DNA of 64,000 bases from Siphonobacter sp. BAB-5405 (GTDB taxonomy: Bacteria; Bacteroidota; Bacteroidia; Cytophagales; Spirosomataceae), in the NCBI RefSeq assembly GCF_002872335.1, contig NZ_NJAG01000010.1, forward strand, positions 1-64,000. The letters are read 5' to 3'. The position numbers were made by a program, and so were the translations under genes. The notes beneath the pieces were generated by a model. The model was not told the DNA's origin, did not search any database, and saw only the letters and a list, made by a program, of their open reading frames with translations. This document shows positions 39,004 through 61,861 of this stretch, in pieces (the first letter of the stretch is position 1; every line of letters starts with the position of its first letter).

Positions 39004-39426
39004 TTAATCATGCGGAGCAAGCCACGAAAAGGGTTCTGCCGGAATGTTTCGAAAAATCCAGAATAAACAAATGACGATCAGGATCCCAATAATGATTCGG
39101 GGATTACGATAAGCCTGCGGCATCGTCTCGTAACCCGTTCCGTGAAAATGCGTGCGAACGCTGAGCACAAAGCCCAGACTCACGTACGGAATCATCAACA
39201 ATAACAAGGCATTGTAGCGGAAAGCTTCCCGAATGTTGCCGTGCAGAAGTTGGTGTAACGCCCGCTGAGCCCCACAGCCCGGGCAGTGTAATCCCGTATA
39301 CTGCCGGAATAAACAGGGTGGGAAAAAAGCGTGTTCAACGGGGTTGAATTCATAATACAGAAAGGCGACGGCTATGGTCATAGCCGCCACCATCCAGTAT
39401 AAAAAAAGTCGTAAGGCAGGAGCCAT
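39004..39426 (-). CDS. DUF2752 membrane protein
   Basis: A 140-residue protein with about three membrane helices. The DUF2752 signature is clear: PCLFRQYTGLHCPGCGAQRA then LLHGNIREAFRYNALLLL. The paired Cys residues may bind a metal or form a disulfide; function unknown. The start lies 3 bases after the stop of the adjacent CD225 gene, so the two are surely cotranscribed. A short palindrome (TTAAGT/ACTTAA, 38990-39007) overlaps its stop. Confidence 0.88.
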   Translation of the reverse strand: MAPALRLFLYWMVAAMTIAVAFLYYEFNPVEHAFFPPCLFRQYTGLHCPGCGAQRALHQLLHGNIREAFRYNALLLLMIPYVSLGFVLSVRTHFHGTGYETMPQAYRNPRIIIGILIVICLFWIFRNIPAEPFSWLAPHD

Positions 39427-39429
39427 TCG

Positions 39430-39732
39430 TTAATAGGTATTAGGTACGCCTCCGGTTCGCATCGTACTGGTGATCAGGGCTCCGTAGAATACCATAAGGA
39501 TAATCCAGGCGATAACCCCCACGGCCAGCGGAACCAGCGTCCAGAGTTTGGCCTGACGGGCGTCATTATCGGCACCCGCGTAATCACCTAAATTATACTT
39601 GGTTTCCACCCGGGCGGCGTAAACAACTCCCACAACACCCAGATAGTTACAGCAGAAAAGCGTGACCAGGATAGCGGGTACCAGCCAGTTGTACGGTTTG
39701 GGAGGAGCCATGTAGGAGGGGGTATTTTCCAT
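39430..39732 (-). CDS. CD225/dispanin family membrane protein (copy B)
   Basis: A 100-residue two-helix protein of the CD225 (dispanin, IFITM-like) family. After a short Pro-rich head come NWLVPAILVTLFCCNYLGVVGVV (helix 1 with the Cys pair), the signature loop ARVETKYNLGDYAGADNDARQAKLW, and helix 2 (LVPLAVGVIAWIILMVF). Eukaryotic members (IFITM) alter membrane fusion; the bacterial role is unknown. It is flanked by a second CD225 gene and DUF2752. Confidence 0.87.
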   Translation of the reverse strand: MENTPSYMAPPKPYNWLVPAILVTLFCCNYLGVVGVVYAARVETKYNLGDYAGADNDARQAKLWTLVPLAVGVIAWIILMVFYGALITSTMRTGGVPNTY

Positions 39733-39833: not shown

Positions 39834-40187
39834 TTACATGCTGTAATTATAATTATCCTGCATTTGTTTGAACATCAGCCCTCCGTACAAGAAGAAAGAG
39901 ATAATATTCAAAATAACACCCAGAGCTACCAGACCGGCCGTTACGTAAAACATAATTTTGGCCGTATTGGCAGAACTTTCCGCTCCGGCGTAGTCGCCCG
40001 CGTTGTATTTCGTGTCGACTTGCGTCGAGAATACGATGCCAATGACGCCGGTAATCGCATTAACCCCGCAGCAGCAAAAGAGGCCCACAACCGTCGCAAC
40101 GATATTTTCAGTAAGCCAGTTTTTGGGTTTTAGAGGCGTAGCTGGGTTGAGCCCTGGGTTGGGCGGAAAAGGAGGGGTAATACTCAT
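39834..40187 (-). CDS. CD225/dispanin family membrane protein (copy A)
   Basis: A 117-residue paralogue of the next gene, with a Pro-rich N-terminus (MSITPPFPPNPGLNPATP), helix 1 containing CCCG (VGLFCCCGVNAITGVIGIVF), the loop STQVDTKYNAGDYAGAESSANTAK and helix 2. It is the first gene of the small cluster, with 101 bases before copy B. Sequence similarity between the two is moderate, so the duplication is not recent. Confidence 0.87.
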   Translation of the reverse strand: MSITPPFPPNPGLNPATPLKPKNWLTENIVATVVGLFCCCGVNAITGVIGIVFSTQVDTKYNAGDYAGAESSANTAKIMFYVTAGLVALGVILNIISFFLYGGLMFKQMQDNYNYSM

Positions 40188-40272: not shown

Positions 40273-40296
40273 ACCGCTCCGGTAAACCAGAGCGGT
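40273..40296 (-). terminator. Terminator after the aminotransferase operon
   Basis: Arms ACCGCTC (40273-40279) and GAGCGGT (40290-40296) pair. On the minus strand the hairpin is followed by TTTCTTTGTTTT. It ends the SusC-SusD-lipoprotein-aminotransferase transcript. Confidence 0.6.
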
Positions 40297-40318: not shown

Positions 40319-41443
40319 TCAGGCTAATGTACCGAAGGCTTCGCCAAAGGTTTTCATTTCATCCAGTGTACCCATCGAAACGCGGCACCAGTGTTGTCCG
40401 GCAAACTCCCAGCTTTTGAGTGCTACGCCTTTCTGGGCCATTTTTTCCACGAAGCTTTTACCCTCCGTTTTGATGGGAAAGAGTACGAAATTTGCCGACG
40501 AGGGCAGATAGTCGTATCCTTTGTCTTTCAGCGTTTTGTAGAGATATTCTTTCGATTCGAGACATTTGGCTTTCGAGTAGGTCAGAAAATCCGTATCCAT
40601 GTAACTGGCAATGGCTCCTTTCACGGAGGTGGCCGACATACTGCCGCCGCCCGTACAGAATTTGTTGATTTCCCGAAGCGTATCGGGTTGGCCAATCAGA
40701 TAGCCGATGCGTAAACCGGCAAAACCGTGAATTTTGGAAAAGGTGCGGGCAATGAGTACGTTATGTCCTTTCTTGACCAGTTCGGTCATGCTGCTGGCTT
40801 TAGGGTCAGCCGCGTAATCCATGTACGCTTCGTCAATGAACAGCGGTTTCTTCTTGGAGAGGTCTTCGCAAAAAGCCGTCATTTTTGAAGCATCTTCCAG
40901 AATACCCGTTGGATTATTCGGATTGCAGAGGTAAACGAGCGACGTTTTATCGTTGACTGCCGCCGCCATGCCGTTGAAATCGTACGTGAAATCCTTCGTC
41001 AGCGGCGTTTTTTTGAATTCGGCTCCCAGGGCCAGGGCCGTCCGCAACAGTTGCATGTAGGTCGGGTCACCGCCTACGATATTGGTAGCGGCTCCGCCTT
41101 TTAGGGTGTAATGAATGCCGGAAGCCATCAGTAACTCGCCCGAACCGGCTCCGAGCAGGACGTGGGCTTCGCTGACGCCGTTTTCCCGGGCAATCATTTT
41201 TTTAAAGGTCATGATCGACTCGCGGGGGTACATCCAGCCACTCGAAATCGCTTCGGCTATCGCTTTCTGAGCTTTGGCAGAGGGCCCGTACGGATTTTCA
41301 TTCGACATCAAACGGGCTTTGATGGGCAGGCCCGCCAGCTTGGGCAGTCCGACGGCTGCGGCTTCGGCGGGTCGCCAGAAATCAGGTACGCTTGCTCCGG
41401 CAACGGCCAAGGCCCCGGATTTAAGCCAGTTACGACGGTTCAT
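40319..41443 (-). CDS. Tat-exported HisC-like PLP aminotransferase
   Basis: A 374-residue fold-type I PLP enzyme closest in pattern to histidinol-phosphate aminotransferases. N-terminal twin-arginine signal (NRRNWLKSGALAVAGASV). Then SNENPYGPS (substrate arm, residues 47-55), LGAGSGELL, CNPNNPTG (173-180, conserved Asn), IDEAY (Asp binds the PLP ring nitrogen), the PLP lysine K237 in TFSKIHG, R245 in LRIGY, and a C-terminal Arg in WCRVSMGT. The cofactor must be inserted before export, which explains the Tat route. It is the last gene of a Sus-type operon, 41 bases after the lipoprotein gene; an amino-compound substrate is inferred, not shown. Confidence 0.86.
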   Translation of the reverse strand: MNRRNWLKSGALAVAGASVPDFWRPAEAAAVGLPKLAGLPIKARLMSNENPYGPSAKAQKAIAEAISSGWMYPRESIMTFKKMIARENGVSEAHVLLGAGSGELLMASGIHYTLKGGAATNIVGGDPTYMQLLRTALALGAEFKKTPLTKDFTYDFNGMAAAVNDKTSLVYLCNPNNPTGILEDASKMTAFCEDLSKKKPLFIDEAYMDYAADPKASSMTELVKKGHNVLIARTFSKIHGFAGLRIGYLIGQPDTLREINKFCTGGGSMSATSVKGAIASYMDTDFLTYSKAKCLESKEYLYKTLKDKGYDYLPSSANFVLFPIKTEGKSFVEKMAQKGVALKSWEFAGQHWCRVSMGTLDEMKTFGEAFGTLA

Positions 41444-41484
41444 GGATGCTGCGTTTAGTGGTTATGAATCGATTCAAAAAGGCA

Positions 41485-41979
41485 TTAACGAACAGATACA
41501 GAAGAAAATCGGGTAAAGGCCACGCCATTCACCGCACCCGTCCAGGACAACCGTATGATCTGTCCTTTATAGTACTTGAGGGGCGGGTTGGCGTAGTTCG
41601 GCACCAGACCCAGTTCAGCCCAGGTTTTCGTAAGGGTAAGCGTACCGGAAGCATCCGTAGTACCCTCACCCAGGGCGGTGCCGTCGCGTTTCAACAGCTT
41701 GACATTCAGATTCGGTACGGGAATGGAGTCAATGCCCTTGGTATGATCCAGAATATTGGTTTTATCGAGCTTCAGTACCCGGATTTTCAGAGCCAGTGGA
41801 GCCGTACTGTCGGAAGGCACGTTCGGTTCCGTAGCAAAATCCGTCTGATAGGTTGCATTCACGATTTGAACCAGAGCGGGGGCCACTTCCCGGGGAACAA
41901 AAGGATCTTCGGCCTTTTCGCAGGCGGTAATGAAACCTAAACAGGCAAGCAAGGCCAGGGGCGTCAGTATGTTCTTCAT
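41485..41979 (-). CDS. Small Sus-operon lipoprotein, function unknown
   Basis: A 164-residue lipoprotein (signal LALLACLGFITAC, Cys20). The mature part is beta-rich, with one Ig- or carrier-like repeat (NVKLLKRDGTALGEGTTDASGTLTLTKTW, residues about 98-126). It lies 49 bases after susD and 41 before the aminotransferase, all on one strand. It could be a surface-exposed binding accessory (SusE/F position), but it is much shorter than SusE or SusF. I do not recognise a family. Confidence 0.65.
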   Translation of the reverse strand: MKNILTPLALLACLGFITACEKAEDPFVPREVAPALVQIVNATYQTDFATEPNVPSDSTAPLALKIRVLKLDKTNILDHTKGIDSIPVPNLNVKLLKRDGTALGEGTTDASGTLTLTKTWAELGLVPNYANPPLKYYKGQIIRLSWTGAVNGVAFTRFSSVSVR

Positions 41980-42028
41980 GGAATCCTTAAGTGCTTAGAT
42001 GGACAATAGGAAAACGGGGTACGTCCCG

Positions 42029-43507
42029 CTATTTTTCGGCCCACCAGAGTTTGGTTTTGAAATCGTCTGTACCACCGTTGAGGCTGATGCCCTCTTTCAT
42101 ATTCGTTGCGTTGAGGGAAGCTTCCGAGCCGGGATAGGGGAGTCGCGTGGGGAGTACGCCGTCGTTGGCAAAAACCGAACGCGGGTCTTTGGCCGGGAAT
42201 ACGGGCAGCCCCGTCCGACGCCATTCCGCCCAGGCTTCGACGCCGTTCGCAAAGAGACAAATCCATTTCTGATCCAGAATTTTTTCCCGGGTTACCGTAC
42301 CCACCGTCGTAAAATAGGAAGCCGGGGCCGTTACGCCGTACTGCGTCATGGAGGCGTTAACTCCTTTTTCGAAGTACTCTTTCGCTACCGTAGCTCCGCC
42401 TTCAATGTCTCCATCAATGGCGGCTTCGGCCAGAATGAAATTCAGTTCAGACCAAGTCATGATGACTTCCGGAGCATCGGCTTTGGTGAACGCAGTACCA
42501 ATTTTGGCGGCTCGGGCCAGATACGTCGTCGCAATGGCGTCGGGTAGTCCGTTGGGTACGCCCAGCCAGACGCCCCCCTGCTGACTCCCGTATACACCCA
42601 GACGCGGATCATTCAGGGCGACCAGCTTATCGACCAGCGTTTGGGAAAGATTCCAGTCCGTCCGACTACCCCAGATCATCGTTTCGTTCCACTCATTGTT
42701 GGACGGACGCGATGTGGTGGTTTTCAGACTGGCATTGTCATCGTTACTGGTGAAAATGGGATACGTCGTCGGGTCGCTCAGAATTTCCTTCATAATGGCC
42801 CGCGATTCGGCGGGTTTCTTGGCCGCTTGCCGGTTGGCCAGTCGTAAACGAAGGGAATTCGCAAACTTTTTCCATTTCAGCACACTGCCGTTGTAGACGA
42901 TATCGCCGGCAATGGCTGGGCCAGTTACCGATAGTTTTTCATTGGCCGTTTTCAAGTCCGCCAGCATTTGCGTATACACCTGCTCCTGAGCGTCGTACTT
43001 GGGCGTCAGTACGGGAGCATCCGTACCGCCCTGCAAGGCCTGCGAGTACGGAATGGCACCGAACGTATCCGTGAGCACCGAAAACACCCAGGTACGCATG
43101 ACCAGAGCTACACCGTAGTAGTTAGCGTGGGGGTTGCTGCCTTTTTCATCCGTGATGGTCAGAATGCGTTGAAGGTTGAGCTGTGAATCGTTGAAGAACG
43201 ACTGCCAGTTGTTAAGCATCAAGGCCTGCGAAGCCTCGTAGTTATCGCCTTCGTTGGAATAAATGTTGCGGCCCAAGTGCTGAATCCAGAGTTCGGCGGC
43301 GTCGAGGTTGAGTCGCTCGAAACGCGTATTGCTGCCCCAGTACCGGTCAATGGATTTTTCCAGAGCGTAGGTCAGCAAATACTGTGGAGATACGCTGGTC
43401 GGACTGTTGGGATTGTCGTTTACCGAATCGAAGCTACCCGTGCAGCCCGAGGTCATCAGGGCCATTCCGGTGGCGAGGGCAAGCGTTTTTATCGTCAATG
43501 TTTTCAT
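42029..43507 (-). CDS. SusD/RagB family nutrient-binding lipoprotein
   Basis: A 492-residue lid protein of a SusC/SusD complex, probably of the SusD-like_2 type. Lipoprotein signal LALATGMALMTSGC (Cys22). The family opening NDNPNSPTSVSPQYLLTYALE, the helical repeat core (YYGVALVMRTWVFSVLTDTFGAIPYSQAL) and the late WSELNFILAEAAIDG are present. It starts 45 bases after the susC stop. Such subgroup members often pair with SusC systems for peptides or small molecules rather than glycans; this is only suggestive. Confidence 0.9.
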   Translation of the reverse strand: MKTLTIKTLALATGMALMTSGCTGSFDSVNDNPNSPTSVSPQYLLTYALEKSIDRYWGSNTRFERLNLDAAELWIQHLGRNIYSNEGDNYEASQALMLNNWQSFFNDSQLNLQRILTITDEKGSNPHANYYGVALVMRTWVFSVLTDTFGAIPYSQALQGGTDAPVLTPKYDAQEQVYTQMLADLKTANEKLSVTGPAIAGDIVYNGSVLKWKKFANSLRLRLANRQAAKKPAESRAIMKEILSDPTTYPIFTSNDDNASLKTTTSRPSNNEWNETMIWGSRTDWNLSQTLVDKLVALNDPRLGVYGSQQGGVWLGVPNGLPDAIATTYLARAAKIGTAFTKADAPEVIMTWSELNFILAEAAIDGDIEGGATVAKEYFEKGVNASMTQYGVTAPASYFTTVGTVTREKILDQKWICLFANGVEAWAEWRRTGLPVFPAKDPRSVFANDGVLPTRLPYPGSEASLNATNMKEGISLNGGTDDFKTKLWWAEK

Positions 43508-43552
43508 TCGTCAGGGAATAATGTTGATCAGAATAAAAGCTCTTTTCCGGCG

Positions 43553-46500
43553 TTAGAAACCCAGGCTCAGGTTGAAACCCATGCTGCGGGAAGAGGGAAG
43601 TTCGCCGTAGCCAAAACCCTGAGCATTACCGCCATTGGCGTCAATTTCGGGATCGGCGTGGGGATGGTTTTTGAACAACATGGCCACGTTCCGTCCTACC
43701 ACTGAAATCTTGGCCGATTGCAGTCGCAATCGTTTGATGAAAGCCGAGGGAATCTGGTAGCCCAGCGACACTTCCCGTAACTTCACGTAGGAAGCATCGA
43801 AAATGGCCGCTTCGTGGTAGTTACGCGGGTTGTTGTAGCCGTAATACTGATTGGCCGAAACGATGGTTGAGTTTGGCGTGAAAGTGTACGCACCTTCGGC
43901 ACTGCGGACGGCGGCTACGCCCTTTCCAATGACGCCTTCTTCCCGCCCAAGGGCCGTTTCGGCGTACTGGCCCGTCCAGCGGGCGTTGGCCGTGCCTTCG
44001 TCGTACATATCGCCGCCAATCTTCGCGTCGATGAGAGCGGATAGGATGAGACCTTTGTAGGAAAAGGTGTTCGAGAAACCACCCATCCAGTCGGGTTGTA
44101 CGTTACCCAGAATTTTCTGCGTAGTCGATTTGACGGGTAATCCGTTCGTGAGTACCAACTGACCCGCGTATTGACCCGTTGGATCATAGTACGCGGCTGC
44201 GGGATCACTGCTTTGTACCCGTTCGAATCCGTAGCCGTACAGCGTTCCGTAGGGTTGGCCCGCCCGGGCTTCGAGGGTCAGACCCCGCCGTTCGTTGATA
44301 ACCAGATTATTGAGTACACCGGGTAACAGTTCCAGTACGGTATTGCGGTTACGGGCAAAGTTCAGAGCTACGTCCCAGGTAAACCCATTGTCGAGTTTGA
44401 CAGGCGTACCCGTCAGGCTGATTTCCAGACCCCGGTTCCGCATTTTTCCGATGTTCTGAATGGCACTGTTATAGCCCGTTGCCTTCGAGAGCTGAACGGG
44501 AATGATCTGATCTTTCGTCGTCTGACTGTAATAGGTAACGTCCAGACCGAGTTTGCCCCGGAAGAAGCGAGCCTCCAGACCTACTTCCTGACCCGTTGTG
44601 ATTTCGGGCTTCAGGGTGGGATTGGGTTTACGGGTTGGTACGTAAAATTCGGGTAGGGAGCCGTTCCAGGAAGTTCCGGCAGTATACACTTCGGCCAGTC
44701 CGTAGGGATCCGTATCGTTACCCACCTGAGCCAGACTGCCGCGTACTTTCAAAAACGAAAGGACGTTGTTTTTTAAACTGGGTACCAGATCCGAAACTAC
44801 CGCACTCAGAGCCGCCGAAGGGTAGAAATAACTGCGGTTGTTTGAGGGCAGGGTCGATGACCAGTCGTTTCGGGCGGTTACATCCAGAAAGAGCATATTC
44901 TGCCAGCCAAAATTCACGGCTCCGAATACCGACTGACTTTCCTTGCGTTCGATGGCACTGGCTACGGTGTTCTGCGTGGCAATGGAGTTCGATAGGTTAT
45001 AGACGCCATCAATCACCAGCTGACCCACGTTGGTATAATTGCGTTTGTAGTAGTTGGTACGCAGCAGAGCACCCGCCGTAGCATTAATTGAGAACGCTTC
45101 CGTGATGTCTTTTTTGTAAGTCAACAGAACGTCAGTATTGGTTTCCTGCCGACGGAGTACTTCCTCGTTATAGGCTCCGTACGAGCGGGCACCGTTCCGG
45201 ACGCGTTCGAAATTACTGACGGCAATGACGGTCTGCGTCCAGAGGTCCGTACCCGAGCGAAGCGTCAGCGTCAGATCATCGAGGATTTTGTAATTCAGAG
45301 CAATGTTTCCGACGAGGCGATCTCGCGTATCCGACGTGGGCAACATTTCCTGACTGTAGTAGGGATTCGTAAAGAAGGTATGCTGCCAGTTTGGTGGATC
45401 CGTATCACCGGGGGGCTGAATGTGCACGTTGGTATAGCTCCGCCAGTCGCGTAATTTATTCCAGTCGGTTTGTCGGTGCGACCAGATAAACTCCTGACCT
45501 CCCGTATAACCCCGATTACCCGAGCCGCTTTTGATGTACTCGGCGGAGACGTTTACGCTTAGTTTAGGGGTGAAATTGTAATGGCTATTCAGTTTATAGT
45601 TATTGCGGTGGAAATCATTGAAATACATAATGCCTTTCTGATCCAGTCGGCCTAAACCGAGACGGAAGCTTCCTTTTTCATTACCACCGGAGATAGCCAC
45701 GTTGTTGGACCAGGTACTGCCCGTCTGCCAGAAATCCCGGTAGTTGCTGGGCATGGGCGTGAGCGGAGCCACGTCCGTACCCGTCCACCACTGGCGAACT
45801 AGCCGGCCATCCAGCGGGGCACCCCAGCTTTCATCGGTTCCCTCTGTACCCGTCAGTGGAGCATTCGGACCGTAGACAGCCCGGTACTGAGCAATTTCTG
45901 CCGGATCGGTAATCGAGCCACTCCAGCCGTTGCGGTACCAGGTGCGATACCCGTTTCCACCGCCGTAGGTATTCTGAAAATTGGGTGAAATCCAGGGGCG
46001 TTCGACCGTATAGTTAGTATTCACTTCCACGCCGATTCCCTGCTGACCGGAGCCGTCTTTCGTCGTAATCAAGATCACGCCGTTGGCCGCCCGCGAACCG
46101 TACAGAGCCGAAGCCGAAGGACCTTTCAGTACCGACACGTCCTTGATGTTTTCGGGGTTAATGTCGGCAATACCACCGCCCAATCGCTTACTAAAACTTT
46201 GCTCGATGGGTACGCCATCGATGACAATGAGCGGCTGGTTGTTGTTGGTAATGGAAGAGGCACCCCGAATCTGAATCGTTGAACCCGAACCCGGTCCGGT
46301 ACCCGCCTGAATGCGTAGACCTGCTACTTTACCCGACAGGGCATTGGCCACGTTGGCGGGGCGAACTTCCGAAACGGCCTTTCCGCCAATACTTTGCTGA
46401 GCGTAACCTAGGGCCTTTTTCTCCCGTTGAATCCCCAGAGCGGTTACCACCACTTCCGTGAGCTGACCCGCTTCCGGTTTCAAATACACGTCAAGCGAAG

Positions 46501-46768
46501 TCTGGGTCGTTACGGCTACTTCCTGTTTAATATAGCCAATGAAGGAAATCACCAGCGTAGCTCCGCCCGAGGGAAGGGTAAGTTTGAATTTGCCTTCGGA
46601 ATCGGTAGTCGTACCGATGGTGGTTCCTTTGATGGATACCGAAGTGCCGGGTAGACCGAGTTTATCGTCGTCAGAGAAGACCTTTCCGATCAGAACCTGA
46701 TCCTGAGCGGAAACGGCCATCGACCAACCCATTAATACGGCAAACAGCCAGAGTAATTTTCTCTTCAT
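43553..46768 (-). CDS. SusC/RagA family TonB-linked outer-membrane receptor
   Basis: A 1071-residue SusC channel. Signal peptide MKRKLLWLFAVLMGWSMAVSA, carboxypeptidase-D-like domain (VLIGKVFSDDDKLGLPGTSV), EVVVTALGIQREKKALGYAQQ before the plug, plug motifs QPLIVIDGVPI and LYGSRAANGVILITTK, then the barrel with a terminal Phe (LSLGF). ATG 46768 is set by the signal peptide; an earlier TTG at 46792 is not needed. It opens the four-gene operon with susD, a lipoprotein gene and the exported aminotransferase. Its upstream region is long and full of hairpins. Confidence 0.94.
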   Translation of the reverse strand: MKRKLLWLFAVLMGWSMAVSAQDQVLIGKVFSDDDKLGLPGTSVSIKGTTIGTTTDSEGKFKLTLPSGGATLVISFIGYIKQEVAVTTQTSLDVYLKPEAGQLTEVVVTALGIQREKKALGYAQQSIGGKAVSEVRPANVANALSGKVAGLRIQAGTGPGSGSTIQIRGASSITNNNQPLIVIDGVPIEQSFSKRLGGGIADINPENIKDVSVLKGPSASALYGSRAANGVILITTKDGSGQQGIGVEVNTNYTVERPWISPNFQNTYGGGNGYRTWYRNGWSGSITDPAEIAQYRAVYGPNAPLTGTEGTDESWGAPLDGRLVRQWWTGTDVAPLTPMPSNYRDFWQTGSTWSNNVAISGGNEKGSFRLGLGRLDQKGIMYFNDFHRNNYKLNSHYNFTPKLSVNVSAEYIKSGSGNRGYTGGQEFIWSHRQTDWNKLRDWRSYTNVHIQPPGDTDPPNWQHTFFTNPYYSQEMLPTSDTRDRLVGNIALNYKILDDLTLTLRSGTDLWTQTVIAVSNFERVRNGARSYGAYNEEVLRRQETNTDVLLTYKKDITEAFSINATAGALLRTNYYKRNYTNVGQLVIDGVYNLSNSIATQNTVASAIERKESQSVFGAVNFGWQNMLFLDVTARNDWSSTLPSNNRSYFYPSAALSAVVSDLVPSLKNNVLSFLKVRGSLAQVGNDTDPYGLAEVYTAGTSWNGSLPEFYVPTRKPNPTLKPEITTGQEVGLEARFFRGKLGLDVTYYSQTTKDQIIPVQLSKATGYNSAIQNIGKMRNRGLEISLTGTPVKLDNGFTWDVALNFARNRNTVLELLPGVLNNLVINERRGLTLEARAGQPYGTLYGYGFERVQSSDPAAAYYDPTGQYAGQLVLTNGLPVKSTTQKILGNVQPDWMGGFSNTFSYKGLILSALIDAKIGGDMYDEGTANARWTGQYAETALGREEGVIGKGVAAVRSAEGAYTFTPNSTIVSANQYYGYNNPRNYHEAAIFDASYVKLREVSLGYQIPSAFIKRLRLQSAKISVVGRNVAMLFKNHPHADPEIDANGGNAQGFGYGELPSSRSMGFNLSLGF

Positions 46769-48725: not shown

Positions 48726-50573
48726 ATGAAATCAACTTCCTTTTGGCTCGGGCTGGCCTTTTTTCAGGTACTGAATGGCTACGCTCAGACCGGCAGTCCG
48801 CAGGAACCCGTCCGCTACATCGGTGGCGAAACCATCGATCCTACGCTTCACGAAGGTCGTCTACGGTACGCCATTGGTACCGAAAACCGACAAACCCTGC
48901 GGGCCAACCGTACCCACCCCGAAACCGCCGACGATCACGGCTGGACGTACAACCATGCCTCGAATCTCTGTTACTGGAACGGCACGTTCTATCAGCAATA
49001 CCTGAGCAATCCCGTGGATGAACACGTGGCTCCAGGCCAAACGCTGGTCATGACTTCCAAAGACGGTCGGCACTGGAACAAGCCTCAGGTGGTGTTTCCG
49101 CCGTACCAGGCTCCGGCGGGTGTCAAAATTCCGGAAGGGTACAAGGGCTACATGATGCACCAGCGAATGGGTTTCTACGTGGCTCCGAATGGTCGGTTGC
49201 TGGTGCTGGCTTTCTACGGTCATACCGAAGATCCCTTCGGAAAAGGAGGCATCGGACGGGTGGTACGCGAAGCCTACAAAGACGGAACCTACGGACCCAT
49301 TTATTTCATTCGCTACACCAGTCATGCTAATTGGAATGAATCCAATACGAGTTATCCGTTCTATAAAAAAGCAACGGATGCAGCTTTCGTGAAAGCCTGC
49401 GACGATCTGCTGAAGGACCCGCTCATGACCTTTCAGTGGTACGACGAAGACAACGGGCTCGATGGCTTTTACAACCACAAAAAGGCCGGACAGGCCCTGT
49501 CGTACTACCACCGTAAAGACGGGAAAGTGGTCGCTCTCTGGAAAAAATCACTCACGGCTCTTTCCTCGGACGAAGGCAAAACGTTCTCCCAACCCGTGAA
49601 AGTCCCCACGCTGGTCATGTCCGGTGGGAAGCAATGGGGGCAGCGGACGGATGATGGCCGGTACGCCCTGAGTTACAATCCCATCGAACAAACGCAGTAT
49701 CGCTTTCCACTCGTCGTAGTAACGGGCGACGACGGGATCCTGTTTGATCACATGCTACTGATTCAGGGAGAATTGCCGCCCCGACGGTATACCGGCCGCT
49801 GGAAGGATTTCGGTCCCTGTTACATGCGGGGCATCGAAGAAGGGAATGGAAACCCGCCGGGTAATGACCTGTGGATGAGTTACAGCATGAACAAGGAAGA
49901 TATCTGGGTTAGTCGGACGCCCGTACCCGTCACGTACCGCGTAAAAGGTACGGTAAAAGACAATTTTGATGCGTTAGAAACCGAAGGGGCCATTCCTGAC
50001 TGGAACATTTACGCTCCGAAATGGGCTCCGATATCGGTGGTCGAAACGCCCGGAAAATCGGGCAAAAGTCTCTTGCTGGCAGACCAGGATTTGTACGATT
50101 ACGCCCGGGCCATCCGGGTATTTGAAGAAGGAACCCAGGTAACGACAAAACTAAAGGTATACGCCGATCCAACGAATACAGGGTTATTGGAGATCGACTT
50201 AACCGATCAATACGGGAACCGACCCGTACGGATTCGTTTCAACGAAAAAAATCAGCTTATGGCTACGGATGGCAGTACCGAAAAAGTACTACAATCCTAT
50301 GAAAAAGGTCGCTGGTACGAGCTGGAAGTCCAGACGAAAGCAACGCCGGGTGGACACTATTCGGTGAAAGTCAACGGCAAAATGGTACTGGAAAAAGCTC
50401 AGCTGGCCGAGGCGGTTAAATCCATCGAACGCTTATCGCTGCGGACCGGACCCTACCGTAATCTCCCCAACCGACAAACGCCCAACGAAACCAACGACCC
50501 GCCTTTACCGAATGCGGATATTCCTACGTCACCCACACGGTTCTATATTGATGAGGTAGTGATTGGAAAGTAA
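48726..50573 (+). CDS. Large secreted sialidase-like beta-propeller protein
   Basis: A 615-residue exported protein with signal peptide MKSTSFWLGLAFFQVLNGYA. The first ~400 residues look like a six-bladed propeller with Asp-box-like pieces (MTSKDGRHWNKPQ, LSSDEGKTFSQP) and an Asn/His-rich active-site face (YNHASNLCYWNGTFYQQY, MMHQRMGFYVAPNGRLL). The last ~200 residues form a LamG/concanavalin-like domain (DNFDALETEGAIPDWNIYAP, then YIDEVVIGK). This arrangement suggests a sialidase-type glycoside hydrolase or a polysaccharide lyase acting outside the cell; I cannot assign a family number. It stands upstream of a TonB receptor on the same strand. Confidence 0.7.
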   Translation: MKSTSFWLGLAFFQVLNGYAQTGSPQEPVRYIGGETIDPTLHEGRLRYAIGTENRQTLRANRTHPETADDHGWTYNHASNLCYWNGTFYQQYLSNPVDEHVAPGQTLVMTSKDGRHWNKPQVVFPPYQAPAGVKIPEGYKGYMMHQRMGFYVAPNGRLLVLAFYGHTEDPFGKGGIGRVVREAYKDGTYGPIYFIRYTSHANWNESNTSYPFYKKATDAAFVKACDDLLKDPLMTFQWYDEDNGLDGFYNHKKAGQALSYYHRKDGKVVALWKKSLTALSSDEGKTFSQPVKVPTLVMSGGKQWGQRTDDGRYALSYNPIEQTQYRFPLVVVTGDDGILFDHMLLIQGELPPRRYTGRWKDFGPCYMRGIEEGNGNPPGNDLWMSYSMNKEDIWVSRTPVPVTYRVKGTVKDNFDALETEGAIPDWNIYAPKWAPISVVETPGKSGKSLLLADQDLYDYARAIRVFEEGTQVTTKLKVYADPTNTGLLEIDLTDQYGNRPVRIRFNEKNQLMATDGSTEKVLQSYEKGRWYELEVQTKATPGGHYSVKVNGKMVLEKAQLAEAVKSIERLSLRTGPYRNLPNRQTPNETNDPPLPNADIPTSPTRFYIDEVVIGK

Positions 50574-60235: not shown

Positions 60236-60310
60236 TGGTAGTCCGTACGGGAATCGAACCCGTGTTTTATCCGTGAAAGGGATACGTCCTAACCCCTAGA
60301 CGAACGGACC
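60236..60310 (-). tRNA. tRNA-Glu (anticodon UUC), CCA encoded
   Basis: Minus strand begins GGTCCGTTCGTCTAGGGG and ends ACGGACT-A-CCA. The cloverleaf is complete: acceptor GGTCCGT/ACGGACT (first pair G-U), D-arm GTC...GAC with AGGGGTTAG, anticodon arm TATCC-CTTTCAC-GGATA giving UUC, and T-arm CGGG-TTCGATT-CCCG. The 3' CCA is encoded (60236-60238). An identical body is present at 61790-61861. Confidence 0.96.
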
Positions 60311-61779: not shown

Positions 61780-61789
61780 GCCAATTTAG

Positions 61790-61861
61790 TAGTCCGTACG
61801 GGAATCGAACCCGTGTTTTATCCGTGAAAGGGATACGTCCTAACCCCTAGACGAACGGACC
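61790..61861 (-). tRNA. tRNA-Glu (anticodon UUC), CCA not encoded
   Basis: The body is identical over 72 bases to the tRNA at 60239-60310, with anticodon UUC. The three bases after the discriminator A read CTA instead of CCA (61787-61789), so the 3' end must be processed and completed by the CCA-adding enzyme. Confidence 0.95.

Follow-up and report, generated by a model that had tools for sequence, protein, structure and literature searches.

A conserved SusCD operon ending in a putative Tat-exported aminotransferase, whose relatives are accompanied by either a predicted L-amino-acid oxidase or a carrier

What is a pyridoxal phosphate (PLP) enzyme with a twin-arginine signal doing at the end of a Sus-type uptake operon? 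The question is raised by a locus in the window, by which we mean the whole 64,000-nucleotide stretch of Siphonobacter sp. BAB-5405 DNA that was analysed; the genomes nearest to it are those of Siphonobacter, order Cytophagales. Four genes follow each other on the minus strand, with intergenic gaps of 45, 49 and 41 bases. They encode a SusC/RagA-type TonB-linked outer-membrane transporter of 1071 amino acids (43553-46768), a SusD-type surface lipoprotein of 492 amino acids (42029-43507), a small lipoprotein of 164 amino acids with a predicted beta-sandwich fold (LP, 41485-41979) and a HisC-like PLP aminotransferase of 374 amino acids (AT, 40319-41443). The AT gene is followed on the same strand by an intrinsic terminator (40273-40296) with a 10-pair stem and a T-rich tail. 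The surrounding 64-base stretch has a fold z of -4.5, and none of 200 shuffles folded as well. A pattern scan gave 7 terminator-like sites overall, fewer than the shuffles (mean 10.9), and hence it is the fold rather than the pattern that is evidence for this terminator. Re-reading of the coordinates upheld the gene order, the single strand, the gap lengths and the terminator reported in the first-pass annotation. A scan of the 832 bases upstream of SusC revealed no full Bacteroidetes-type promoter pattern; the sole -7-like element there lies 636 bases away from the gene.

Several other features surround the operon. Beyond the AT terminator, also on the minus strand, are genes for two CD225-family small membrane proteins (39430-39732 and 39834-40187) and a DUF2752 protein (39004-39426); related small genes follow AT in other Siphonobacter loci that we saw. 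Approximately 2 kb upstream of SusC, on the opposite (plus) strand, a BT_1020-like beta-propeller or sialidase-like protein with a CBM-type domain is encoded at 48726-50573, and this gene occupies the same place in three other Siphonobacter loci. An Rfam search of the window returned two tRNA hits and nothing else; these are tRNA-Glu (ttc) genes at 60236-60310 and 61789-61861 on the minus strand, about 1.5 kb apart.

The identification of a Sus-type unit is sound, since SusC scores 678.5 bits against TIGR04056 (cut-off 368.25) and SusD scores 331.6 bits against PF12771 (cut-off 27), and SusC orthologues adjoin SusD in relatives. The arrangement resembles that of known SusCD systems in that SusC adjoins SusD in the company of a small lipoprotein, but differs from them in ending in a putative exported transaminase, and none of the four genes matched a glycan-active enzyme in family profile searches. 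LP exceeds the cut-off of no family, its match to bMG3 being below cut-off. Its lipoprotein cysteine, Cys20, is invariant in all 12 aligned members, and its AlphaFold2 model is a beta sandwich (pLDDT 79.0, pTM 0.70). No confident fold match to LP was found; the best solved match has an E value of 3.1e-4, with a TM score of 0.38-0.45 to Nir2, and a viral structure library gave weak Ig-like matches only.

AT has the fold, the Schiff-base lysine and the cofactor residues of a class I/II PLP aminotransferase. It scores 140 bits against PF00155 (cut-off 19.7), and its structural model (pLDDT 87.3) has as nearest solved fold 3ly1, a putative HisC-like enzyme with 31% identity. In alignment AT is identical to Escherichia coli HisC at Y55, Y110, N157, D184, Y187, S213, K214, R222 and R335, which we take to be cofactor and substrate residues, in agreement with the earlier statement that its PLP residues are complete. 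Fold and cofactor residues are therefore shared with HisC, but Y20 is replaced by Leu and R322 by Lys, both in N- and C-terminal regions where the alignment is uncertain. These two are presumably phosphate-side residues of HisC. Under the same uncertainty, Y20 differs in all six ATs compared, and the position of R322 is occupied by Arg in two, Lys in two, Gln in one and Gly in one. We rejected AT as the HisC of histidine synthesis, since it scores 225.8 bits against TIGR01141 (cut-off 276.55) and another HisC-like gene of the same genome keeps both phosphate-side residues. It is likewise not PtaA itself, a periplasmic transaminase discussed below: its score with the PtaA model NF051461 is 209.9 bits (cut-off 500), and none of the 10 matches in this genome exceeds that cut-off. 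The best NCBIfam match is to the PRK09105/NF006580 aminotransferase subfamily and covers residues 2-371, signal region included, yet it reaches 252 bits where the cut-off is 444, and the name of that model assigns no function. Thus, among the functional models for this subfamily, HisC and PtaA, AT is above cut-off for none.

The N-terminus of AT reads MNRRNWLKSGAL. Its twin-arginine signal region (41354-41443, minus strand, end approximate) consists of NRRNWLKSGAL and a weakly hydrophobic stretch. In the loci that we fetched, the pattern RRxx[LIVMFA][KRQ] is present near the start of 53 of 55 AT rows, compared with 8 of 374 other open reading frames of at least 250 amino acids, and the two AT rows without it are an unrelated aminotransferase and a signal-less paralogue. 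The genome also encodes TatC. The signal described as clear in the first-pass annotation is thus supported, and AT can be regarded as a putative Tat substrate on the strength of a motif conserved in its family. If the arginine pair had arisen by chance, AT could be an ordinary cytoplasmic aminotransferase that happens to lie beside a Sus pair. We consider this very improbable given the incidence of the pattern and the presence of TatC, and given that all 11 rows of a predicted L-amino-acid oxidase (LAAO), a recurrent neighbour of AT, bear a Tat-like pattern as well.

The association of AT with the Sus genes extends well beyond the window. An orthologue of the window SusD is present in 26 of 59 related genomes, with at least 59% identity and at least 660 bits, the next score class reaching no more than 386 bits; the window locus is itself one of the 26. 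AT is found in the same locus in every case, on the same strand and within 1.4 kb of SusD in 23 and divergently oriented beside SusC in three (G011, G030 and G031). LP is also present in all 26 loci, although in G035 it comes after the carrier gene described below. In a draw of 150 genomes from the family, LP was detected in 91 genomes, representing 26 of 36 genera. Among the matches listed, the distance between LP and AT is less than 2 kb in at least 83 of the 91 and 5.7-6.0 kb in four; the four remaining LP-positive loci were read, and here AT is divergent beside SusC in three and on another contig in one (G521). A class-wide draw, which contained few members of this family, had LP in 3 of 395 genomes. 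One of these three, G414, from another order, has the arrangement SusC-SusD-LP-AT-carrier (L112, 4007-11494), with 30-49% identity to the query proteins and an AT that begins with a twin-arginine signal. We reject chance adjacency of AT and the Sus genes on the basis of the 26 shared loci and the counts in the family draw. The same gene order, with AT co-conserved with SusCD, does occur in other genomes; the lack of co-conservation that the first reading of this DNA had named as refuting is thus not what the comparisons show, and they confirm the four-gene arrangement as real and conserved. In one locus (L060, 2375-5547) SusC is spread over two reading frames, which may reflect a frameshift in the gene or in the assembly.

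The converse does not hold, as the LP marker of the Sus unit is missing from 34 of the 125 genomes of the family draw that have AT. This implies that SusCD is optional and that the core consists of AT and one partner. The unit of SusCD and AT originally proposed is therefore co-conserved but not obligatory, and the four-gene account missed the partner, which is more closely tied to AT than SusCD is. These partners emerged from clustering of neighbouring genes in 53 stretches (52 loci and part of the window, in which LP was masked by an overlapping open reading frame on the opposite strand). Three further families lie beside AT: an AEC-like carrier, the LAAO and a secreted Hint-domain protein. 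The carrier was matched by TIGR00946 in three of four members (best E value 8.5e-11; 38.8 bits for the member shown, cut-off 246) and by PF03547 in one of four (E value 1.5e-4); these matches are below the curated cut-offs, and "AEC-like" is accordingly a weak family call. The carrier has no solved relative at an E value of 1 or better.

The second partner is a predicted L-amino-acid oxidase with a Tat-type signal. The L052 copy scores 183.8 bits against PF01593 (cut-off 19.8), and the solved chain nearest to the LAAO of the window's genome is 2jae, with 338 bits over nearly the whole length, the next solved chain having 105 bits. Unlike 2jae, which we take to be the L-amino-acid oxidase from Rhodococcus opacus, the partner enzyme has a Tat-type signal and is grouped with AT and the Hint-domain protein, the gene for which usually follows that for LAAO. 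Two long forms of the Hint-domain protein score 34.7 and 42.3 bits against the Hint profile (cut-off 29.7) and one short form is below it. The long forms occur beside LAAO and the short forms beside the carrier (L056, L060, L061, L064, L065 and L078). In an alignment read by eye the Hint cysteine is kept in 13 of 13 long forms and missing in 6 of 7 short forms, which leaves room for a Hint domain without catalytic activity; for the short forms this suggests either decay or a non-catalytic role.

On contig G000:C221 (locus L072, 5525-9456, minus strand) the genome to which the window belongs encodes an AT-LAAO-Hint operon, whose AT is a second one with a twin-arginine signal; this locus is probably the partner of the window operon. 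Of the 26 SusD-positive loci, 14 have the carrier after AT or otherwise with it, two have LAAO there and 10 have neither; all 10 of these, the window's own genome included, have LAAO elsewhere in the genome. In G040 the LAAO gene does not adjoin AT but lies approximately 4.3 kb upstream of SusC, and the LAAO-bearing contig stretches of G052 and G015 showed no AT.

Tat-dependent export of a PLP enzyme is by itself not new. According to the part of a review on which we draw (PMC6206403), PtaA of Pseudomonas fluorescens is a HisC-like PLP transaminase that enters the periplasm via Tat, folded and with its cofactor; it acts on pyoverdine and occurs also in species without pyoverdine. The same part describes PvdN of Pseudomonas as a Tat-exported periplasmic PLP enzyme that makes the succinamide of pyoverdine. 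AT resembles PtaA in being a HisC-like PLP transaminase with a Tat-type signal, but it falls far short of the PtaA cut-off, is part of a SusCD unit and has LAAO or the carrier as partner. With PvdN it shares the Tat-type signal and the PLP residues, whereas PvdN, as covered there, is not a HisC-like transaminase and has no reported link to Sus genes (PMC6206403). The first-pass annotation could match the pathway to no described system, a statement that stands for the Sus linkage but not for an exported PLP transaminase. Within the CC0, CC BY and CC BY-SA literature we found no exported transaminase joined with SusCD, LAAO or an AEC carrier, and it is the Sus linkage and the either/or partners that appear to be new in relation to the literature searched. 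The example of PtaA raises the possibility that AT alters the amino group of a secreted or recycled compound, for example a siderophore, and that SusCD reclaims the finished compound. That AT does obtain 209.9 bits with the PtaA model is compatible with this, as is the periplasmic site at which PtaA meets pyoverdine, but the distance to the cut-off, and the finding of no recurrent family of biosynthesis genes in the near neighbourhood covered by the 53 stretches, make such tailoring rather unlikely.

The distribution of the two partners follows an either/or rule. Of the 59 genomes, 16 have the carrier, 18 have LAAO and none has both, and a single partner is present in every one of the 26 SusD-positive genomes (14 carrier, 12 LAAO). 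The family draw of 150 genomes contains AT in 125, the carrier in 71, LAAO in 54 and both partners in none. Exactly one partner is found in 124 of the 125 AT-positive genomes, the exception being G542, which has neither, and a partner without AT is found in a single genome, G015, in which LAAO reaches the contig end. The 91 LP-positive genomes divide into 62 with the carrier and 29 with LAAO, none having neither. The rule was derived from the 59 genomes; outside these, exactly one partner is present in all 66 LP-positive genomes and in 93 of the 94 that are AT-positive. AT-positive here denotes a match to the window AT at an E value of 1e-45 or better, a signal not being required. The carrier was counted at a threshold of 1e-30, and genomes scored as carrier-negative may hold other AEC-family members below it. 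The counts for the 150 genomes come from separate searches with the same draw settings and agreeing genome labels.

These figures also bear on whether the oxidase might be a weapon. Amino acid oxidases of marine bacteria are described as antimicrobial proteins, in the portion of the source used here (PMC4699246), and by analogy LAAO could be a peroxide-making defence enzyme, AT its supplier of amino acids and the Sus genes linked to them by history only. The 34 AT-positive genomes without LP would be in keeping with this. We nevertheless judge it improbable, given that the carrier, without LAAO, accompanies AT in at least half of the AT-positive genomes (71 of 150 genomes, versus 54 of 150 with LAAO) and that all 26 SusD orthologues share a locus with AT.

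Partner presence is clustered by genus: out of 31 genera only one (g248) includes both kinds, in different species. The SusD tree needs three partner switches, at least two of which are forced by well-supported branches. As a consequence of this clustering and the small number of switches, Fisher values (down to 1e-21) overstate independence. In the AT tree, carrier-side and LAAO-side ATs are split by a branch with 100/98 support among the 34 labelled rows, 25 unlabelled rows not being counted. Omitted from this tree were an unrelated aminotransferase, the near copies L009, L076 and L077, the signal-less L073 and a long open reading frame beside hisC, which looks like, and which we presume to be, HisD. 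The division within g248 illustrates the pattern: G451 has the order SusC-SusD-LP-AT-LAAO-Hint and G465, which carries the same genus label, has SusC-SusD-LP-AT-carrier, with 65.6% identity between their SusD proteins and 39.8% between their ATs. Since the AT tree splits by partner and the SusD tree requires three switches, AT and its partner appear to move together as a cassette behind a conserved SusC-SusD-LP. Two carrier genomes contain additional copies. G028 has a window-type AT beside a carrier-type AT, and G035, whose genome lacks LAAO, has a second AT of the LAAO side beside a Hint gene, apparently a remnant.

We propose that the window operon serves as the uptake half of a module for transamination in the periplasm, in which the amino group is cleared by LAAO or the carrier, and assign this reading a probability of roughly 0.4. 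SusC, SusD and LP would carry an amino-acid-like compound over the outer membrane; AT would be exported via Tat, folded with its PLP, and in the periplasm would move the amino group of the compound to a keto acid, or take one from it. Transamination outside the cytoplasm would require that the keto acid be renewed and the amino acid formed be cleared. The exported LAAO might achieve this on the spot, by using O2 to regenerate the keto acid from the amino acid, and the carrier by exchanging amino or keto acid with the cytosol through the inner membrane, so that either would suffice. The window's genome would use the LAAO route, its operon working jointly with the AT-LAAO-Hint operon at L072. 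The nature of the partner, an L-amino-acid oxidase, and the retention in AT of R335, which we take to be the carboxylate-side arginine of HisC, make it probable that the substrate either is an alpha-amino acid or ends in one. More generally, we tentatively suggest, with the odds on the side of doubt, a periplasmic amino-group economy in which keto acid renewal has been solved twice, interchangeably and, in the genomes examined, in a mutually exclusive manner, by an O2-using exported oxidase and by an inner-membrane carrier.

LAAO and the carrier could instead act on the imported compound itself and not on a co-substrate. SusCD would then import an amino-acid-like nutrient, AT would deaminate it, together with LAAO where present, and in the carrier lineages the resulting keto acid would enter the cell through the carrier. 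The two partners would have different jobs, and the cassettes would have replaced each other whole. AEC-family members carry carboxylates, which is what this plain catabolism would ask of the carrier, and the behaviour of AT and partner as whole cassettes on the AT tree, with three switches on the SusD tree, also speaks for it. Alone, however, it leaves unexplained why LAAO and the carrier never occur together (0 of 150 genomes), and also where the periplasmic amino acceptor originates. We regard it as a doubtful but serious contender, and a reading that has both partners acting on the imported compound comes close in merit to the recycling one.

If the proposed transamination module is correct, transamination would be a nutrient-handling step in the periplasm, coupled to a non-glycan Sus system, and an amino-acid-like class of substrate would be predicted for a SusCD clade without glycan enzymes. 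The turnover of a PLP enzyme outside the cytoplasm would become directly testable through its two interchangeable natural partners. Even if the chemistry proves to be different, the either/or pattern in 124 of 125 AT-positive genomes provides a clear handle on function.
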